Below are positions 5,445-20,819 of a stretch of 22,416 nt of DNA, in pieces; the stretch's first letter is position 1, and every line of letters starts with the position of its first letter. Location: IMG/VR virus record IMGVR_UViG_3300009593_000134, positions 1 to 22,416 of that record; one strand, 5' to 3'. The stretch comes from a virus. Below the pieces are notes generated by a model that saw only the letters and a program-made list of their open reading frames with translations, was not told the DNA's origin and ran no database searches. A program made the position numbers and the translations under genes.

Positions 5445-5469
5445 CATAAATAGTTAGTGACTATTTATG
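5445..5469. promoter_or_regulatory. 25-base palindrome containing a T4-late-type octamer on each strand
   Basis: CATAAATAGT at 5445-5454 and its exact reverse complement at 5460-5469 surround a 5-base loop. CATAAATA differs from the T4 late -10 octamer TATAAATA only at the first base, and it occurs on both strands because of the symmetry. On the + strand it would start transcription near 5458 for the gene at 5505. The same structure could end the transcript of the secreted-protein gene, but the T run after it is weak. The rest of the 80-base gap (5425-5504) holds nothing else I can name. Confidence 0.5.
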
Positions 5470-5504: not shown

Positions 5505-6737
5505 ATGCTGAAATTCAAAGATTTTTTAGTGGAATCTCAAGGTGCTAATAAGCATCTTGAGCATATAGAAGATGAGGTTTTGAATAGCGGTTTTAATGGA
5601 GTTAAAAAAGCAATTACTTATTTAAGTTCATTAGGTTCTACGTTAAAAGGTGATTCCTCTAAAAAGATAAAAATAACGACAAAATGGGATGGGGCACCAG
5701 CAATATTGGCTGGTGTTGATCCTGAAAGTGGAAAGTTTTTTGTTGCAACTAAGCATGGTGCTTTTGCGAAAGAACCAAAATTAAACTTTTCAAATAAAGA
5801 TATAGACGAAAATCATGAAGGTGATTTAAGAGACAAATTAAAGTATTCTTTAATGTATCTTAAAGACATTGGAATGGATGGTGTATATCAAGGAGATTTG
5901 TTATTCAGTTTACCAAATCATAAATCGGTAGAAAATATCGATGGTGAACCCCATATTGTTTTTAAACCTAATACTATTGCATATGCAGTTAAGTTGCGAA
6001 GTGAATTAGGAAAGAAAGTAAATGCTTCAAAGTTGGGTGTTGTTTGGCATACGAAGTATGAAGGTGAACGAGTAAACCAGATGGATGCAACATTTAATGT
6101 TGATGTTTCTCGTTTTAAAGAGTCGGATGATGTGTGGTATAAAGATGCTGAATATGAAAAAATGGATGGAATAGCATCTTTTACAAAGGAAGAAACAGAG
6201 AAGTTTTTCGCCATACTTTCAATGTCAGGTAGGATATTTAGAACACTTGATAAGAATATGTTGAACAGTATTGCGGAAGATAAATATTTAAATACACAGA
6301 TTAAGGCGTACACTAATTTAAAGATTAAAGAAGGAATGCCCATTGGTAATGTTAATAGTCATGTTGTTGGTTTGATTAAATACTTAAATAATAAGTTAAA
6401 TAAAGAGGTTGATAAATTAAAGTCTGAAAAAGGTAAACAAAAAAGGCGTGAAAAGAATGATCAATTTTTAACATTTTTTAATAAGAATAAAAATGCTTTG
6501 AAAAATATGTTTCAAATGCAAAATGTTCTTATAGCCGCTAAAATGATGATTGTTCAAAAGTTACAAGACATTCAACCTTTGACAAAAACATTTATACGAA
6601 CCGATAGTGGTTTTGAAGTTACAAATCCAGAAGGATTTGTGGCAGTTACATCAGACGGTGGAGCAGTAAAATTAATAGATAGACTAGAATTTTCTAGACA
6701 AAATTTTTTAGCACTAAAAACATTTGGGAGTAGTTAA
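5505..6737 (+). CDS. ligase-fold nucleotidyltransferase-like protein with capsid-targeting-like N-terminus
   Basis: A 410-residue protein. Residues 1-11 (MLKFKDFLVES) have the form of T4 capsid-targeting peptides (MKTYQEFIAE in internal protein III), with a possible prohead-protease cut after VE. The core has K60-WDG-AP, which resembles motif I (KxDG) of ATP-dependent DNA/RNA ligases and capping enzymes, where the lysine is adenylated. VYQGDLLF near 127-134 could be motif III, and IVFKPNTIAYAV at 151-162 resembles the motif III-IV region. From memory, related T4-like phage proteins are annotated only as a family of unknown function (possibly DUF6267). A nucleotidyltransferase activity is my inference. 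The C-terminal third is Lys-rich and helical. The ribosome site is weak: AGAGGA lies 15 bases upstream. The last base of its stop codon is the first base of the next start (TAATG). Confidence 0.7.
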   Translation: MLKFKDFLVESQGANKHLEHIEDEVLNSGFNGVKKAITYLSSLGSTLKGDSSKKIKITTKWDGAPAILAGVDPESGKFFVATKHGAFAKEPKLNFSNKDIDENHEGDLRDKLKYSLMYLKDIGMDGVYQGDLLFSLPNHKSVENIDGEPHIVFKPNTIAYAVKLRSELGKKVNASKLGVVWHTKYEGERVNQMDATFNVDVSRFKESDDVWYKDAEYEKMDGIASFTKEETEKFFAILSMSGRIFRTLDKNMLNSIAEDKYLNTQIKAYTNLKIKEGMPIGNVNSHVVGLIKYLNNKLNKEVDKLKSEKGKQKRREKNDQFLTFFNKNKNALKNMFQMQNVLIAAKMMIVQKLQDIQPLTKTFIRTDSGFEVTNPEGFVAVTSDGGAVKLIDRLEFSRQNFLALKTFGSS

Positions 6738-7147
6738 TGCGACAAGAAGAACAAGGTCTCTTAGACACATTAAATGAAAAGTATTTGGACATTGCATTGA
6801 ATGAAGATGTCGATGCACGATTGAAAAGATTAGCCCGAGAAGGTCTAATTGGCGAAGGAGAATACGCATTATTTCTCAAAACAATGAAAGATTTAGAAGA
6901 AGGTAAAAAACCAACTCCTAAACAAAGAATGATGATTTTGAGAATTTTTGATAAAATGCTAGGTCTTATAATGGGCGATAAAGTTGTATATCAAAAGATT
7001 CTTCAAACAGTTAAGAAGAGTAAAAAAGATAAAGCAAAAGTAAAGGAAGAAGCCTTTAGGGACACACATACTATGGTCATGCATAAGGGCGTGGAAATGT
7101 ATGTAGATGATGAGAACCAGTTACAAGAAGTACCATCATTTGAATAA
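6737..7147 (+). CDS. conserved-looking small protein, function unknown
   Basis: A 136-residue, mostly helical protein whose ATG overlaps the stop codon of the ligase-like gene (TAATG), so the two are probably co-translated. The middle (about 34-75) has a G-E-Y/L-x-L-F pattern followed by TPKQRMMILRIFDKML, then a strongly basic stretch (KKSKKDKAKVKEE, about 89-101) and a short acidic tail. I vaguely recall similar small genes next to the same ligase-like gene in other T4-like phages, but no function is known to me. It has no capsid-targeting peptide, signal peptide or membrane segment. Confidence 0.75.
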   Translation: MRQEEQGLLDTLNEKYLDIALNEDVDARLKRLAREGLIGEGEYALFLKTMKDLEEGKKPTPKQRMMILRIFDKMLGLIMGDKVVYQKILQTVKKSKKDKAKVKEEAFRDTHTMVMHKGVEMYVDDENQLQEVPSFE

Positions 7148-7150
7148 ATA
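7143..7150 (+). promoter_or_regulatory. possible T4-late-type promoter octamer (AATAAATA)
   Basis: AATAAATA resembles the T4 late octamer TATAAATA and ends 5 bases before the ATG at 7156. T4-type spacing (start about 6 bases after the octamer) would place transcription initiation at that ATG. The gene has no Shine-Dalgarno sequence. In AT-rich DNA such an octamer can arise by chance, and it overlaps the preceding stop codon. Confidence 0.25.
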
Positions 7151-7155
7151 CTTAA

Positions 7156-8352
7156 ATGAAGTTATACAAGAATTTTTTAACAGAATCAAAGCAAGGGAAA
7201 ACGGCAATTGCGACCTACGGTAGAATGAATCCTCCTACTATAGGGCATGTCAAACTTGCGAAAAAAATTCAAACGGAAGCACGAAGGAGAAAAGCAGAGC
7301 CTTACATTTTTCTATCTCCTTCACAGAATGCTAAAAAGGATCCTTTAGATCCAGATAGAAAAGTTGTTTATGCTGAAAAAACGCTAGGACAACATATTAA
7401 TATTGATGTTAAACCTAACATCTTTAAAGCATTATCTGATCTATATTCAGAAGGTTTTAAAGAAGTTGCTATAGTAGTTGGTAGTGATAGACTAAATGAG
7501 TTCTCCAAAATGATTCCTAAATATAATGGAGTCGAAGGAAAGGCTCATGGATTTTATGATTTTACAAATATTGATTTTGTTAGTTCAGGAGAACGTGATC
7601 CTGATGCTGAAGGAGTCTCTGGAATGTCCGCATCAAAACTAAGAGGATTTGCGGTTTCTGGTGACTTTAATAATTTTAAAAAGGGTACAAAGTTATCTGC
7701 TAAAGACTCTAAATCAATGTTTAACGAAATAAGAAAGGCTATGAAAGTGGAATCTGTTACAGAACAAGTCGGTGTACGTAAAGTAGATTTTGTAGATGGA
7801 GTAGAAGAACAGGGTGCTGAATATCCAAAAACAGATGCAGATAAAAAGGCCCATTTACAAAAGATATTTAAAAAAATGTCAGATGTTAGAAAAGCAAAAG
7901 AGAAAAAAATGGGTGTAAAGATAACAGATGTAACGCCTAAGGGATATGGTCCTAATGAAGATGCGGGTGCTAGAATAAAAGCAAGAAATACTGCATTTGC
8001 ATTAAAGAAATCAAGAGATCATGAATATGAAATGAAGTATGGAAGAAAGAAAGATAAAAGGGCAATTGGTGAAGATGCAAAAATGGGAAAGCAGTCCGAT
8101 TCTACTTTAAAAAAGATGCATAAAAAATTCTCTTCAATGGATATGTCTTCACCAGCCAATAAACACATGCATAAACGCATTGAAAAAGAAATGAAAAGAC
8201 GAGGACAAGTTGCGTTTCCATCTGGAGTAGACGAAGTTGCACCTCCAGGAAGAGAAAAACAAGTAAAAGCATTAAAGAAAAAAGTTGGTACAGATAAAGC
8301 ATATGCATTTGCTTGGGCTCAACATAACAAACATGGATTACCTGAGGAATGA
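7156..8352 (+). CDS. NMN-adenylyltransferase-like protein with capsid-targeting-like N-terminus and basic tail
   Basis: A 398-residue protein in three parts. Residues 1-11 (MKLYKNFLTES) again look like a T4 capsid-targeting peptide with a protease site after TE. Residues about 16-200 are a cytidylyltransferase-like domain: GRMNPPTIGH at 22-31 is the nucleotide-binding (H/T)xGH motif, VVGSDR at 107-112 is typical, and SGMSASKLR at 155-163 is the second ATP motif. This suggests transfer of AMP to nicotinamide mononucleotide or a similar nucleotide. Residues 200-398 are a Lys/Glu-rich tail with short modules, ending with AYAFAWAQHNKHG, which I have seen in virion proteins of marine T4-like phages. 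There is no clear ribosome site. The frame ends at a TGA after LPEE, but stays open past it (see 8353-8472). The substrate is uncertain; the fold is fairly secure. Confidence 0.82.
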   Translation: MKLYKNFLTESKQGKTAIATYGRMNPPTIGHVKLAKKIQTEARRRKAEPYIFLSPSQNAKKDPLDPDRKVVYAEKTLGQHINIDVKPNIFKALSDLYSEGFKEVAIVVGSDRLNEFSKMIPKYNGVEGKAHGFYDFTNIDFVSSGERDPDAEGVSGMSASKLRGFAVSGDFNNFKKGTKLSAKDSKSMFNEIRKAMKVESVTEQVGVRKVDFVDGVEEQGAEYPKTDADKKAHLQKIFKKMSDVRKAKEKKMGVKITDVTPKGYGPNEDAGARIKARNTAFALKKSRDHEYEMKYGRKKDKRAIGEDAKMGKQSDSTLKKMHKKFSSMDMSSPANKHMHKRIEKEMKRRGQVAFPSGVDEVAPPGREKQVKALKKKVGTDKAYAFAWAQHNKHGLPEE

Positions 8353-8472
8353 ATATTAGAAGCCATACTTGTAAATAGAGATTACAAATATGATGGAAAG
8401 AAAATTCACATTTCTAAAAAGAATTTTAGTAAGGTTCACAAAGATTTTAAGAATTCTACTAAGGGTAAAGAA
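8353..8472 (+). other. open in-frame stretch after the TGA, coding-like but without a start codon
   Basis: Forty codons in the same frame as both flanking genes are open and contain no ATG, GTG or TTG. The translation reads ILEAILVNRDYKYDGKK and continues with HISKKNF; it resembles two domains in the protein at 9179. This argues that the stretch is, or recently was, translated, either by TGA readthrough from 7156 or as the lost N-terminus of the 8473 gene. ILE-A would also be another [IL]-x-E protease site. Confidence 0.55.
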
Positions 8473-9177
8473 ATGATGATAACTTATGATTCAAAATGGG
8501 GAACAATTTCAGTTCCAGTCGAATTTACTGAAGAAGTTGTTAAAGAAGATCATTTAAAGACAGGTGCAAGAGTAAAAGTTGCTCATCCAGCAAAAGGAAA
8601 GGGAATGGTAACAGGAAAGATTGTACGATATGACAATCAAGGACCAGGGAGTCCATTCTATATGGTTTCTATTCCAGGACTTGCAAGATCGGAAAAAGTA
8701 CCTGCACATAAACTAAAAGAAGAATTTGATCCTTTGAGACTAAAAGCAGAACAAACAGGAGTACCTTTTAAAATTTTAGAAAAAGTTTACAAACGAGGAC
8801 TTAGTTCTTGGAAAGTAGGTCATAGAGCAGGAACTACGGCAGAACAATATGCAGAAGCAAGAGTTAATTCCTTCTTAACTGGTGGAAAAACAAGATTAAC
8901 TGCTGATGATGATTTGTGGTCTAATGTTAGTTCAAATAACAGTAGAGTAAAGGAAGAGATGGATACAAATCATGCATTTAAAAAATGGCTTGCTTTAAGT
9001 GAAGCGGATGTTGTTGTAGACACACCTCAAGGTAGATATGTAAAAAAAGGATCTGTTTCTAAAGCAAAAACCGATGCACAAAAAAGATTTGTTAAGACAA
9101 AAGATAAAAAATCAGTACAAACTAGAACTGCAACCCCAATAGAACGAAAGTATCTTCAACGCAAGGATGAGGAATAA
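8473..9177 (+). CDS. basic virion-internal-type protein, possibly the second half of a readthrough product
   Basis: As a separate gene it encodes 234 residues from ATG 8473, with AAGGG 7 bases upstream. The frame is continuous with the 7156 gene apart from one TGA at 8350. Residues 30-84 (GARVKVAHP, GKIVRYD, SPFYMVSIP, KVPAHKLKEE) form a beta-rich domain. Residues 85-150 contain KVYKRGLSSWKVGHRAGTT and ARVNSFLTGGKTR followed by ADDDLW, segments I recall from structural proteins of marine T4-like phages. FKKWLALSE-A at 169-178 looks like an internal capsid-targeting/protease site. The C-terminal 55 residues are very basic. It probably belongs to the head-internal set with its neighbours; no enzymatic function is recognised. 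The stop overlaps the ribosome site of the next gene. Confidence 0.72.
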   Translation: MMITYDSKWGTISVPVEFTEEVVKEDHLKTGARVKVAHPAKGKGMVTGKIVRYDNQGPGSPFYMVSIPGLARSEKVPAHKLKEEFDPLRLKAEQTGVPFKILEKVYKRGLSSWKVGHRAGTTAEQYAEARVNSFLTGGKTRLTADDDLWSNVSSNNSRVKEEMDTNHAFKKWLALSEADVVVDTPQGRYVKKGSVSKAKTDAQKRFVKTKDKKSVQTRTATPIERKYLQRKDEE

Positions 9178-9178
9178 T

Positions 9179-12100
9179 ATGTCAGATATTTACTTAGACG
9201 AAGAATTTAAAACATTTGTTCCAGGACCATTTGTAGATCCCGAACAAGATGCGGTATATAAAGAATTTCTAAAACTAAAACAGACTCAAACTGAAGAAAC
9301 TTCTGAAGAAAAAACAGAGCCTGATGCTTTAAATGAACAAGGAGATGTTCATCATCACCATTATGCTAAGGGAGACAATCCTGACGATAAAAAGAAACGT
9401 GAGAAGGATGCTCAAGCAAAGGCGAAAGAGAAAACAAATGGTAATGGGGAAGCAAAAGCAAAGAGTAATGGTGAAGAAAAACCAAAATTAGATCCTGTTG
9501 GAAAAGAAGATGGGGATATTGATAATGATGGTGATAAAGATAAATCTGACAAATATCTTGCGAAGAAAAGAAAAGCAATTGGGAAATCCATCAAAGCACA
9601 GAAAAAAACTAAGAATGAGAAACCTATAAAATTATCAGGTGAATCAGACAAAGTGGAAGTGCATAAGGGAGTTGAAGAAGGAACACGTTTACAGGTAAAA
9701 ATGGCTTTAGGTGATGCTGGAGTAGAAGGGGACTTTGATGGTAAAAATGTTAAAGTTCATAAAAAGAATATTAAAAAAGCACAAAAAGCATTAAAGGGAA
9801 ATGTCTATCATAAAGGAAAAGCACCTAATGTTGTAGCACATGAAGATGTTCAAATAGATGAAATGCCTAACAGAGCATATAAAGAAAAGATTAATGCTTT
9901 GTTGAAAGACTATCATGGAAAATTTAAGTGGAAGGGCGAAGAACTATATGTTTCTAAAGAAATAGAAAAAGATGTTAGAAATATAATTTCTAAAGACAAA
10001 GGACATTCATATATGATCAAAGTTTCTTCCAATCCAATGAGAGAAGAGATTCAAATAGATGAAAATGTTCGAAGAAAATTACGTGATTTTGCTACAGATT
10101 TGGCCGCTTATGCTAAATCAAAAGGTGGAATCGATAAACAATATTTTGAAAAGATTGCACAAATAGCCGCTTCAGGACAAATACCAGCCGCTAAAGATAT
10201 CGATAATGATACAGATCCAAGAGATTTTGTTTTGGGTATGATGGCTAAAAGTTTTCCAAAACAAGTTATGAAAAATTATACAGGAATCTCACCTGCACTA
10301 TCTCATCATTTTGAGGAAAGTGTAGATTTTGATGCTTTTATTCTTGAATCAACTGAAGCATATGCTAAATCTTTGAAGAAAATTGCTAGGGATAAAGCAA
10401 TTAAGATGTTAAAACCTGGAGAGCATGATAAGATTAGAAAGATTCGTGATATGATGAAACATGCAAATGAAGAAAAAACATTAGGAAAATATTTAAAACG
10501 TGAAGGCGTAAATCATCCTGCCGATAAGAAAAGCGGTTGGGTTGCAAAATCAGTTCAGGCTTACAAAGCACAAAAAAAGAAGTTGAAAAAACCAAGTCAT
10601 CCTGGATATGGGACAGAAGAATCTGTTGAAGAAAACATAGCATATTTAAAGAATAAAGATGGACATGTTTTTCATATTTCAAAAAGAGATAAAAAAGGTG
10701 ACAAATTTTCAATGAGTGTTAAAGATAAATCTGGTAAAACAATTAAAGATTGGGGTTCTCATCCATCACTTGATGGTGCAAAGAAATTTGCAGGAAATCG
10801 TGGTTTTACTGAAGAAGTAAATACAGGAAATAATAGGTTAAAAGCAATTGAAAAAGATATTGATAAACTTCATAGTCGAACAAAACATATGAAATATCTT
10901 AAAGGAAAGGATCGTGATCAAATGCGTGATTTGTCAAGAAAAAGAGATGAAATTTTGAAATCACGTTCTATTAAAGGACAATTTGAAGGAACAGAAACCG
11001 TAGACGAAATTGCACCTGTAGTTGCGGGAGCCGCAAGACTTGCAGTTTCAGCAGGAAGAGGTTTAGCAAAAGTAGGTATGAGAGTGGCGAAGAAAGTGGG
11101 AAGGGAAGTGAGAGACAGATTTCCTGCTTCTACTAATAATAATGAGAAAACAGAAGGAACCGTTCCTAAGTATGCAAATAGAAAAACTGCTCAAGCCGAG
11201 AAAAAAGCAAGAGAAGATGCACAAAGAAAAAGAGCAGGGTTAGATGAAGCAAGAAAATCTGACTATCAACTTTATCATAAAGATTTTTCGTCCGCTATGC
11301 AACATGCTTATGAAGTTGCAAAGAAACGAGGATATATAGTCGATAAAGATGATATCGATAACAAAGTTGCAACAGGCCCAAGAAAACCATCTAACGGTAA
11401 AACAAATCGTTATATTCTAGGTACTGACAAAAAGCAAAACGTACATATTCAAGTTGCAAATTTAGACAATAAACGATATGAACTTAACATGTATGTCGAA
11501 GAAGTTGATCTTGATGAAAAACAACAACATCATATAAGTGGTAATAGCATGGTCAACAAACTGTATTTAATGAATCAAGCAAAAGCCATTGCTAAAGAAA
11601 AAGCAGGACCAGACAAAGAACATAAAATTTCTGACTGGGAAAAATTGGCTAAACAAATGGGATTTAGCAGGAGGAAATACGAAGAAATTGGTGATCACCA
11701 AGGAATCTATGAATCCGCTACTACACAAGAAAAGGAAGATATGGCCAATAAAGGATCATTAAAACTTGAAAAGGTTTTAAGTGCTAGAAAGAAATTCGTT
11801 GAGCCTGAAAAAAGAGCAGGAGAATGGGGTACTGACGAATTATCAGATAATTACAAAGAAGAAACTCCTGGACAGAATGTCAAAGAAGGAAATGTCATTA
11901 TGAATGACAGAGATCCATATAGAATCTTTGAACAAATGGTTCATTATTTAATGGGAACTTCTATTAAGAATATAGAAGACTATTCTTTTTACAAGATCGA
12001 ATCAACTCCTGATAAGTTAAGATTAGAAAACAAAGAAGGAGCATTGGCAACTATTACATTATCGGATGTACAAAATTTTTACGATGATAATGACATGGCA

Positions 12101-12328
12101 ATGGATGAATTCATTGAAATGATGGTTGGATTCGGTGTTAAGGAATTGAGTGAAAAGGAGAACAGTATTGTTGGAGATGAAGGTACTCCTGCAATCGGTA
12201 AAGAAAAGTTAGGGCACGGTATCTATACTACAGATCCGCCTCGAACTTTTGAAAGTATGGACGTATACTCGGAGTTCATATCATCAAATGAAAAAAATCA
12301 AAAAAATGGTTTTACAGTAACTAAATAA
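9179..12328 (+). CDS. large modular head-internal-type protein (possible polyprotein)
   Basis: A 1049-residue, Lys/Glu-rich multi-domain protein. I start it at ATG 9179 rather than 9167 because GAGGA lies 5 bases before 9179. Numbered from that Met, a dockerin/EF-hand-like loop with Asp at 113, 115, 117, 119, 121 and 124 comes first. Two related small domains follow (DFDGKNVKVHKKN about 185-197; KWKGEELYVSKE about 250-261). Next come helical modules (about 295-380), AYAKSLKKIARDKA (about 394-407), a Gly/Ala helix (about 614-640) and a module near 700-775 with RGYIVDKDDIDNKVATGP. Short acidic linkers ending in IDE, ILE or LDE recur between modules (226-228, 293-295, 388-390, 688-690, 778-780) and fit the T4 prohead-protease consensus [IL]-x-E. 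That suggests cleavage into many packaged peptides, which is inference. A His run (VHHHHYAKG) lies near residue 57. Confidence 0.75.
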   Translation: MSDIYLDEEFKTFVPGPFVDPEQDAVYKEFLKLKQTQTEETSEEKTEPDALNEQGDVHHHHYAKGDNPDDKKKREKDAQAKAKEKTNGNGEAKAKSNGEEKPKLDPVGKEDGDIDNDGDKDKSDKYLAKKRKAIGKSIKAQKKTKNEKPIKLSGESDKVEVHKGVEEGTRLQVKMALGDAGVEGDFDGKNVKVHKKNIKKAQKALKGNVYHKGKAPNVVAHEDVQIDEMPNRAYKEKINALLKDYHGKFKWKGEELYVSKEIEKDVRNIISKDKGHSYMIKVSSNPMREEIQIDENVRRKLRDFATDLAAYAKSKGGIDKQYFEKIAQIAASGQIPAAKDIDNDTDPRDFVLGMMAKSFPKQVMKNYTGISPALSHHFEESVDFDAFILESTEAYAKSLKKIARDKAIKMLKPGEHDKIRKIRDMMKHANEEKTLGKYLKREGVNHPADKKSGWVAKSVQAYKAQKKKLKKPSHPGYGTEESVEENIAYLKNKDGHVFHISKRDKKGDKFSMSVKDKSGKTIKDWGSHPSLDGAKKFAGNRGFTEEVNTGNNRLKAIEKDIDKLHSRTKHMKYLKGKDRDQMRDLSRKRDEILKSRSIKGQFEGTETVDEIAPVVAGAARLAVSAGRGLAKVGMRVAKKVGREVRDRFPASTNNNEKTEGTVPKYANRKTAQAEKKAREDAQRKRAGLDEARKSDYQLYHKDFSSAMQHAYEVAKKRGYIVDKDDIDNKVATGPRKPSNGKTNRYILGTDKKQNVHIQVANLDNKRYELNMYVEEVDLDEKQQHHISGNSMVNKLYLMNQAKAIAKEKAGPDKEHKISDWEKLAKQMGFSRRKYEEIGDHQGIYESATTQEKEDMANKGSLKLEKVLSARKKFVEPEKRAGEWGTDELSDNYKEETPGQNVKEGNVIMNDRDPYRIFEQMVHYLMGTSIKNIEDYSFYKIESTPDKLRLENKEGALATITLSDVQNFYDDNDMAMDEFIEMMVGFGVKELSEKENSIVGDEGTPAIGKEKLGHGIYTTDPPRTFESMDVYSEFISSNEKNQKNGFTVTK

Positions 12329-19817: not shown

Positions 19818-20819
19818 ATGTCCATTTATATTGATGTAAAATATTTGAATCTCCTATCTAATCGTCTCCCGATATTTAAGCAAAAAAGAGAATATCTTTG
19901 GAATTTTAGATGTCCTATCTGTGGTGATTCACAAAAAAAATTAACTAAAGCAAGAGGCTATGTTCATAGAAAAGAGAATGATCTTTTCTATAAATGCCAC
20001 AATTGTGGTGTGGGGAAATCTTTCTCTAATTTCTTAAAAGAATTAGATATGAGATTACATTCTGAATATGTCATGGAAAGATATAAGTCAGGTGAAAACA
20101 AATTTAGTAATTATAAAGAACCAGAATTTAAATTTGAAACTCCTACCTTCAACAAAATTGAATTAGACATACCCTGTGTCTCTACTTTAGAAGATGATCA
20201 TTTCTGCAAGCAATATGTAAAATCCAGAAATATCGACCTTGGTAAATATAAGTATCTTTATTTTGCACAAGACTTTAAACAATGGGTAAAAAGTTTAAAT
20301 CTTGACACAGAATATGAGTTAATTGAAGATGATCCTAGATTAGTTATACCTTTTTTTGATAAGGATTATAATATGATTGCCGCTCAAGGAAGATCATTGA
20401 GAGGTGGTTCTAAATTAAGATATGTTACAATAAAAGTTAAAGAAAATGCTCCCAAAATTTTTGGGTTGAATACCTGGAACGAAAATAAAACGACCTACAT
20501 AGTCGAAGGTCCAATCGATTCCTTATTCGTAGAAAATTCTATTGCTATGGCTGGTGCTGATTTATCTGCGTATATGAAAATGTTTACTAATACTGATGTT
20601 GTATTCATATATGATAATGAAAGAAGAAATAAAGAAATCATTAAAAAGATGGACGGAATTATTTCAGACAACTATAAAATAGTTATCTGGCCTAAGCATG
20701 TTGTACAAAAAGACATTAATGATATGATTTTAAATGATGTAAATGTTATGGATATTATTGAAAAGAATACCTATCAAGGTTTAACTGCGAAAACAAAATT
20801 ATTGGAATTTAAATTATGA
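19818..20819 (+). CDS. 61: DNA primase (gp61-type)
   Basis: Makes the RNA primers for lagging-strand synthesis together with the gp41 helicase encoded at 3257. The 333 residues match T4 gp61 (342) in order: an N-terminal zinc site with C32-x2-C35 and C60-x2-C63 (CPICGDS, CHNCGVG), KARGY at 44-48, and RLVIPFFD near 174-181. The Toprim catalytic segment IVEGPIDSLF follows (E230, D234), then the metal-binding VFIYDNE (D266 and E268). AAGAGGT lies about 6 bases before the ATG. Its stop overlaps the thyX start (ATGA). Confidence 0.94.
   Translation: MSIYIDVKYLNLLSNRLPIFKQKREYLWNFRCPICGDSQKKLTKARGYVHRKENDLFYKCHNCGVGKSFSNFLKELDMRLHSEYVMERYKSGENKFSNYKEPEFKFETPTFNKIELDIPCVSTLEDDHFCKQYVKSRNIDLGKYKYLYFAQDFKQWVKSLNLDTEYELIEDDPRLVIPFFDKDYNMIAAQGRSLRGGSKLRYVTIKVKENAPKIFGLNTWNENKTTYIVEGPIDSLFVENSIAMAGADLSAYMKMFTNTDVVFIYDNERRNKEIIKKMDGIISDNYKIVIWPKHVVQKDINDMILNDVNVMDIIEKNTYQGLTAKTKLLEFKL

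Follow-up and report, generated by a model that had tools for sequence, protein, structure and literature searches.

Two otherwise unrelated proteins encoded on the virus record IMGVR_UViG_3300009593_000134 start with ten residues that match a T4-type capsid-targeting sequence (CTS). This record, which is called the window here, comprises 22,416 bases and its gene order is that of a T4-like marine phage. The first of the two genes (positions 5505..6737, + strand) encodes a DUF6267 protein, which is a probable ligase-like nucleotidyltransferase, and the second (7156..8352, + strand) a cytidylyltransferase-like, NMNAT-like protein with a basic C-terminal extension. Capsid targeting of both proteins is a prediction that we regard as strongly supported, because the peptides match T4 at the CTS positions, are selectively conserved, are portable between unrelated proteins and co-occur with virion detection elsewhere. 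We consider it likely that both proteins are packaged as enzyme cargo and that the tag is portable across T4-like phages.

T4 internal protein IPIII starts with MKTYQEFIAE|A, and this 10-residue propeptide is annotated in X04567. In the T4 CTS, ten residues are sufficient, and mutagenesis assigned targeting to residues 4 and 7 and processing to residues 8 and 10 (PMC9026906). The open reading frame (ORF) of the DUF6267 protein starts with MLKFKDFLVE|S (F4, F7, L8, E10; putative targeting peptide at 5505..5534, + strand, predicted propeptide cut before Ser-11 at 5535), and that of the cytidylyltransferase-like protein with MKLYKNFLTE|S (Y4, F7, L8, E10; 7156..7185, + strand, predicted cut before Ser-11 at 7186). 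Thus, both peptides have aromatic residues at positions 4 and 7, Leu8 and Glu10, and the processing site [LI]8-x-E10 is present as LVE and LTE, respectively. Both ATG starts are unambiguous, with zero alternative in-frame start codons between the upstream stop and the ATG. When the signature was sought as a control at internal positions of the ORFs in the window, 0.06 N-terminal matches were expected among the 26 ORFs and two were seen (Poisson P = 0.0017); the expectation from amino-acid composition alone was about 0.001. Beyond these peptides, the two proteins are unrelated (PF19782/DUF6267 vs. a cytidylyltransferase-like domain, phrog_3041/395). A preliminary description of this DNA had pointed to a T4-style N-terminal pattern shared by two otherwise unrelated enzymes, and both parts of that statement held.

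For the conservation analysis, whose N-terminal alignment had been suggested in the preliminary description, we aligned 57 DUF6267 homologues that are 35-79% identical to the window protein. Here, we found that the conserved columns are exactly 4 (F/L/Y in 53/53 homologues), 7 (F/Y in 50/55), 8 (L/I/V in 55/56) and 10 (E in 55/56). Columns 2, 3, 5, 6, 9 and 11 are variable, and the folded domain follows after a linker of differing length. Conservation at the CTS positions reaches DUF6267 homologues of 23% identity. In an AlphaFold2 model, residues 1-15 of the window protein scored below pLDDT 50 and were disordered outside the confident folded domain. DUF6267 loci in IMG/VR were gathered via internal motifs. 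About 600 were scored against the window protein, and of the best 80, which are therefore its nearer relatives, 60 carried the signature, many of the others having degenerate forms of it. For the cytidylyltransferase loci the corresponding fraction was 41/71; a scan of IMG/VR with the window cytidylyltransferase alone gave one locus. Two annotation details were seen on the way. In phage C48C1, the annotated start of the cytidylyltransferase (L002, 10622-12031) seems to lie too far downstream, and the tag IKNFSQYLLEE is regained with an upstream start. In S-PM2 (L006, 8989-10768), DUF6267 is fused to the cytidylyltransferase, and a frameshift or a sequencing error divides its DUF6267 part in the annotation as deposited.

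The tag is not confined to these two families. Seven related records together contained 18 tagged N-termini vs. 1.7 expected (P about 6e-13), and the tag is common to otherwise unrelated proteins such as DUF6267, cytidylyltransferase, SAM hydrolase, kinase and others, including unrelated proteins at the same locus of related phages. The 64-kb relative G001 contains only two tagged genes, DUF6267 and cytidylyltransferase, and G007 has four consecutive ones. A prohead protease of the gp21 family (PF03420) is encoded in G001, G007, G008, G009, G010, Melnitz, C48C1, HTVC008M, syn9 and DLP_6.

Published virion mass spectrometry of S-CREM2 identified 52 of its 219 proteins (PMC10665884). A strict motif, which had been fixed before the proteins of this phage were read, was present in 3/52 virion proteins vs. 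0/167 others (P = 0.013). With the regular expression of the genome scan, matches were found for 5/28 virion proteins that the authors had not listed as structural vs. 2/167 undetected proteins (P = 7e-4), and with a loose motif for 6/52 vs. 7/167 (P = 0.059); the association depends on requiring the aromatic pattern. When the N-termini were ranked with a weight matrix trained without S-CREM2, the virion proteins gp154, gp14, gp6, gp136, gp13 and gp12 were among the top 10 of 219, and this ranking (four named enzymes, Mann–Whitney U test, P = 2e-7) agrees with the strict motif. All three enzymes classed as regulatory by the authors are tagged (SAM hydrolase, MKDFDSFLEE; kinase, MKRFDAFLTE; cytidylyltransferase, MKNFSSFLTE), and a Cas9-like nuclease among the top-ranked proteins carries FASFMAE after about 17 residues of its annotated N-terminus.

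Tagged relatives of the window cytidylyltransferase were detected in the virions of four cyanophages, which are S-SM1 (MKKFSAFLNE, PMC3037559), S-SCSM1 (NMNAT, MKSFLQFLKE, PMC9602691), S-SZBM1 (MRFRQFIIE, PMC9146016) and S-CREM2. A tagged kinase of S-CRM01 (MISFDQFLSE) was also reported in virions. The S-PM2 cytidylyltransferase, which is fused to an untagged DUF6267, was not detected in the S-PM2 virion (PMC3037559), and the untagged DUF6267 protein of S-SZBM1 was not detected in that virion proteome; such absence of detection carries less weight, and the latter result fits packaging without being positive proof of it. Since tagged relatives were found in four cyanophage virions and the tagless S-PM2 protein was not, packaging of the window cytidylyltransferase-like protein is likely by analogy. 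For the DUF6267 protein, the sequence data make packaging probable. Of the earlier proposal that both enzymes are packaged in the capsid, the targeting part is thus strongly supported, and packaging itself stands at the strength just given.

Several observations weigh against packaging of both proteins via the tag. We found no virion proteomics for this phage, nor for any other in which the DUF6267 protein is tagged, as it is in Melnitz and C48C1. The virion proteins S-SCSM1_89, 90 and 92, which are encoded at the same locus, lack an N-terminal tag, so that the tag is not the sole packaging route, and most S-CREM2 virion proteins are also untagged, as expected of structural ones. The gp21 gene is absent from the window contig, a 22-kb fragment that does not reach that region. 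Finally, the preliminary description had named homologues in the same gene context without this N-terminus as an observation that would refute it, and such genes do occur in some lineages (Syn1, MED4-213, S-PM2 and the HTVC008M cytidylyltransferase); yet one of these untagged homologues, that of S-PM2, went undetected in virions, in keeping with a functional tag.

These findings leave room for other explanations. If only the cytidylyltransferase were packaged, the DUF6267 protein would stay in the cytoplasm and its peptide would be a family relic or serve another role such as oligomerisation. All direct mass spectrometry indeed concerns the cytidylyltransferase and other cargo, and DUF6267 is untagged in S-SM1, S-SZBM1, S-CRM01, Syn1, MED4-213 and S-PM2. 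However, its peptide is kept at the CTS positions and not around them down to 23% identity, and unrelated proteins of the locus carry an interchangeable peptide, so that we regard this explanation as rather unlikely. That the resemblance is a coincidence of short N-termini has hardly any probability. Ten residues are short, and there are isolated false positives (the clamp-loader-like protein of Melnitz, MKKTFQTFVDE; S-CREM2 gp30 and gp175), but the excess of matches in the window and in its relatives and the conservation in dozens of homologues stand against chance.

It is also conceivable that the binding partner of the peptide is a different structure of the phage or the host, such as a replication complex or a membrane site, and that virion detection reflects co-purified abundant proteins. 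The genes sit between the replication genes gp41 and gp61, and the authors of the S-CREM2 and S-SCSM1 studies could not exclude carry-over of abundant proteins (PMC10665884, PMC9602691). Carry-over, however, would not select tagged proteins as observed for S-CREM2 (5/28 vs. 2/167), the pattern was repeated for the S-CRM01 kinase and the cytidylyltransferases of three further phages, and the S-CREM2 virion list does not contain replication proteins such as UvsX, the clamp or the single-stranded DNA-binding protein. We therefore consider this scenario very unlikely.

According to the packaging account, which we favour, the aromatic residues 4 and 7 would dock both proteins on the scaffold core of the prohead late in infection, and a gp21-type prohead protease would cut after Leu-x-Glu at residue 10, leaving enzymes that start with Ser-11, as suggested by the T4 system. 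The freed enzymes would stay in the head together with the DNA, a step for which the mass spectrometry of tagged cytidylyltransferase relatives provides support, and may be delivered on infection in the way of the T4 internal proteins. By analogy with T4, we infer that the proteins are cut after Glu-10, injected and active before transcription. Across Kyanoviridae-type phages the tag would be a portable module on a changing set of enzymes, many of them encoded between gp41 and gp61, and the cargo here would consist of a covalent nucleotidyltransferase-like protein and an NMNAT-like nucleotidyltransferase. A role of this cargo in nucleic-acid or NAD+ repair or in other early takeover chemistry at the start of infection is speculative. 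It is known that phages can counter NAD-depleting defences by restoring NAD+ (NARP1, PMC12774641).

The DUF6267 protein matched the PF19782 profile with E = 4.9e-104 (349 bits vs. a curated cut-off of 27). Across 57-64 sequences, the residues K60xD62G63, Q129G130D131, E376G377xV379 and K389 are invariant, and we take them to be the motifs of a covalent nucleotidyltransferase (motif I, KxDG; the acidic motif III, QGD; motif IV, EGxV; the K-containing motif V). AlphaFold2 with 57 homologues gave a model with a pLDDT of 84 and a large helical insertion; the single-sequence prediction (pLDDT 32) was uninformative. The best Foldseek matches of the model were DNA ligase IV chains and these were weak (E 0.044, probability 0.72, TM about 0.2), and a profile search of PDB sequences yielded no credible match. 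Taken together, the sequence data suggest that this protein is probably a ligase-like covalent nucleotidyltransferase. The label ligase-like, which had been given to it before, is reasonable in view of the motifs and the weak ligase match, but it is unproven and the named family is DUF6267.

The cytidylyltransferase-like protein gave profile matches to phrog_3041 (E = 1.6e-49) and phrog_395 (E = 3.3e-39), and the HxGH nucleotidyltransferase motifs are conserved as GRMNPPTIGH (GxxxPPxxGH) and GMSASKLR (S(A/S)xxxR). PF01467 was matched in its homologues. No NMNAT family (NadM, NadR, TIGR00482) was matched above cut-off, the window protein matching only TIGR00125, below cut-off, and its homologues matching TIGR00482 and nadR far below it. 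A profile search of PDB sequences did not give a credible match here either. Thus, the nucleotidyltransferase part of the earlier assignment to an NAD-pathway enzyme stands on the HxGH motifs, but the NAD pathway itself is a weak assignment.

Mullaney and Black reportedly described the T4 internal proteins and their CTS in 1996. Like the peptides described here, those of T4 IPI, IPII and IPIII are N-terminal, portable and ten residues long, with aromatic residues 4 and 7 and [IL]8-x-E10, and there is a gp21-type protease in the lineage (PMC9026906). The T4 proteins differ in being small basic anti-defence cargo, whereas the proteins with the predicted tag here are enzyme-like, have about 400 residues or more and are encoded at another locus. 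T4 Alt, an ADP-ribosyltransferase, is a head-packaged enzyme with an N-terminal propeptide that is cut by gp21, and it is ejected into the host (PMC9026906), but it belongs to another enzyme family and its propeptide has 7 residues. According to a 2010 review, cyanomyoviruses lack alt (PMC2984593). In the phiKZ-like phages (SPN3US, phiKZ), many inner-body or ejection proteins are similarly cut after glutamate by a gp21-related protease; the phiKZ cut motif is S/A-x-E (PMC9026906). The virion NMNAT-like or cytidylyltransferase proteins of S-SM1, S-SCSM1, S-SZBM1 and S-CREM2, all four tagged, belong to the same family as the window protein, and the first three are encoded at the gp41-gp61 locus as in the window. 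The corresponding papers reported virion detection, some with speculation on NAD (PMC3037559, PMC9602691, PMC9146016, PMC10665884). Hence, the presence of cytidylyltransferase in cyanophage virions (since S-SM1, 2010) and CTS-driven packaging in T-even phages are already known. We found no literature linking the cyanophage virion cytidylyltransferase to a CTS and no paper on DUF6267, subscription papers being outside our search; the CTS link, the spread of the CTS and DUF6267 as predicted cargo appear to be new.

The order of genes in the window is DNA polymerase, UvsX, gp41 helicase, a block of unusual genes, fibre-like genes, gp61 primase and ThyX; where no family was matched, the gene was named from synteny. 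The gp41-to-gp61 block is also found in the Kyanoviridae-type phages Melnitz, HTVC008M, syn9, S-PM2, Syn1, S-SZBM1, S-SM1 and S-CRM01. Between the two tagged genes lies a small ORF (6737..7147, + strand) without CTS and without family match, and downstream there is a DUF5824-containing ORF (8473..9177, + strand; PF19141, E = 1.1e-13). In G001, a single tagged cytidylyltransferase ORF of 764 aa takes the place of the cytidylyltransferase and DUF5824 ORFs of the window (398 and 234 aa; 7156-9177), and parts of the DUF5824 ORF are found inside it with the domain segments in a different order. Judging from such arrangements, modules of the gp41-gp61 cargo locus are shuffled between ORFs.

The next ORF of the locus (9167..12328, + strand) encodes a modular basic protein of 1053 aa, which is related to the virion protein S-SCSM1_92 (52% identity over 72 aa) and contains a calcium-loop-like segment, DGDIDNDGDKDKSDKYL; its G001 homologue starts at 20313 on the minus strand. 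That it is a polyprotein cut at [LI]xE was not supported by the raw count of this motif (10 vs. 9.4 expected). The narrower motif [LIV][DE]E is in excess (9 vs. 2.5 expected), and a packaged polyprotein could be its identity, for which this excess is a lead only.

Upstream of the DUF6267 gene there is a perfect palindrome, CATAAATAGT-TAGTG-ACTATTTATG (5445..5469; 10-bp arms, 5-base loop), with ATAAATA on both strands. It is nearly identical in 21 related contigs, and the flanking intergenic and upstream DNA diverges. A further ATAAATA, a weak late-promoter-like site (7144..7150, + strand), is located just upstream of the cytidylyltransferase gene, where it overlaps the end of the upstream ORF; it is also present in G001, in which ATAAATA additionally occurs upstream of head genes. 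Interpretation of these sites as late promoters is suggestive, and we did not use it as support because ATAAATA is under-represented across the window (5 vs. 13.6 expected) and coding sequence extends into the site at 7144.

Other features of tagged proteins were seen in the related phages. In S-CRM01 (gp131-127; L186, 3749-8327), a tagged cassette comprising a kinase, a Cas9-like protein or its N-terminal part and small proteins adjoins the cytidylyltransferase, and S-CREM2 gp12-gp15 (L011, 7704-13331) represent the same cassette in a different genome region with the tags retained. Many cargo proteins have in common a module of about 45 residues after the tag, K..GL..DGHG.Y.D..G..V..T..G.L..Y (L071, 8820-10049; L004, 8782-9930; L185, 5770-6933; gp12 and gp14 of L011; gp128 of L186). 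CTS-like peptides were also seen at C-termini, RTFKEFLEYIE in the virion protein S-SCSM1_93 (L071, 11627-11836) and KTFRDFLN in S-CREM2 gp12 (L011, 7704-10313), and these are possibly a C-terminal version of the tag.

For virion enzymes such as NMNAT-like proteins, SAM hydrolases and kinases, previous authors could not separate cargo from contamination (PMC10665884, PMC9602691), and the tag offers a sequence-level criterion for this distinction. It would allow one to predict which enzymes are delivered by T4-like phages that have not been cultured, and it marks the uncharacterised family DUF6267 as likely cargo of this kind. On balance, it seems reasonable to expect that marine and freshwater T4-like phages load lineage-specific enzymes (nucleotidyltransferases, NMNAT-like proteins, SAM hydrolases, kinases, a Cas9-like protein) via one portable ten-residue tag. 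Injected protein would then catalyse the first reactions of the infection, and N-terminal sequences may reveal which cargo uncultured phages carry.

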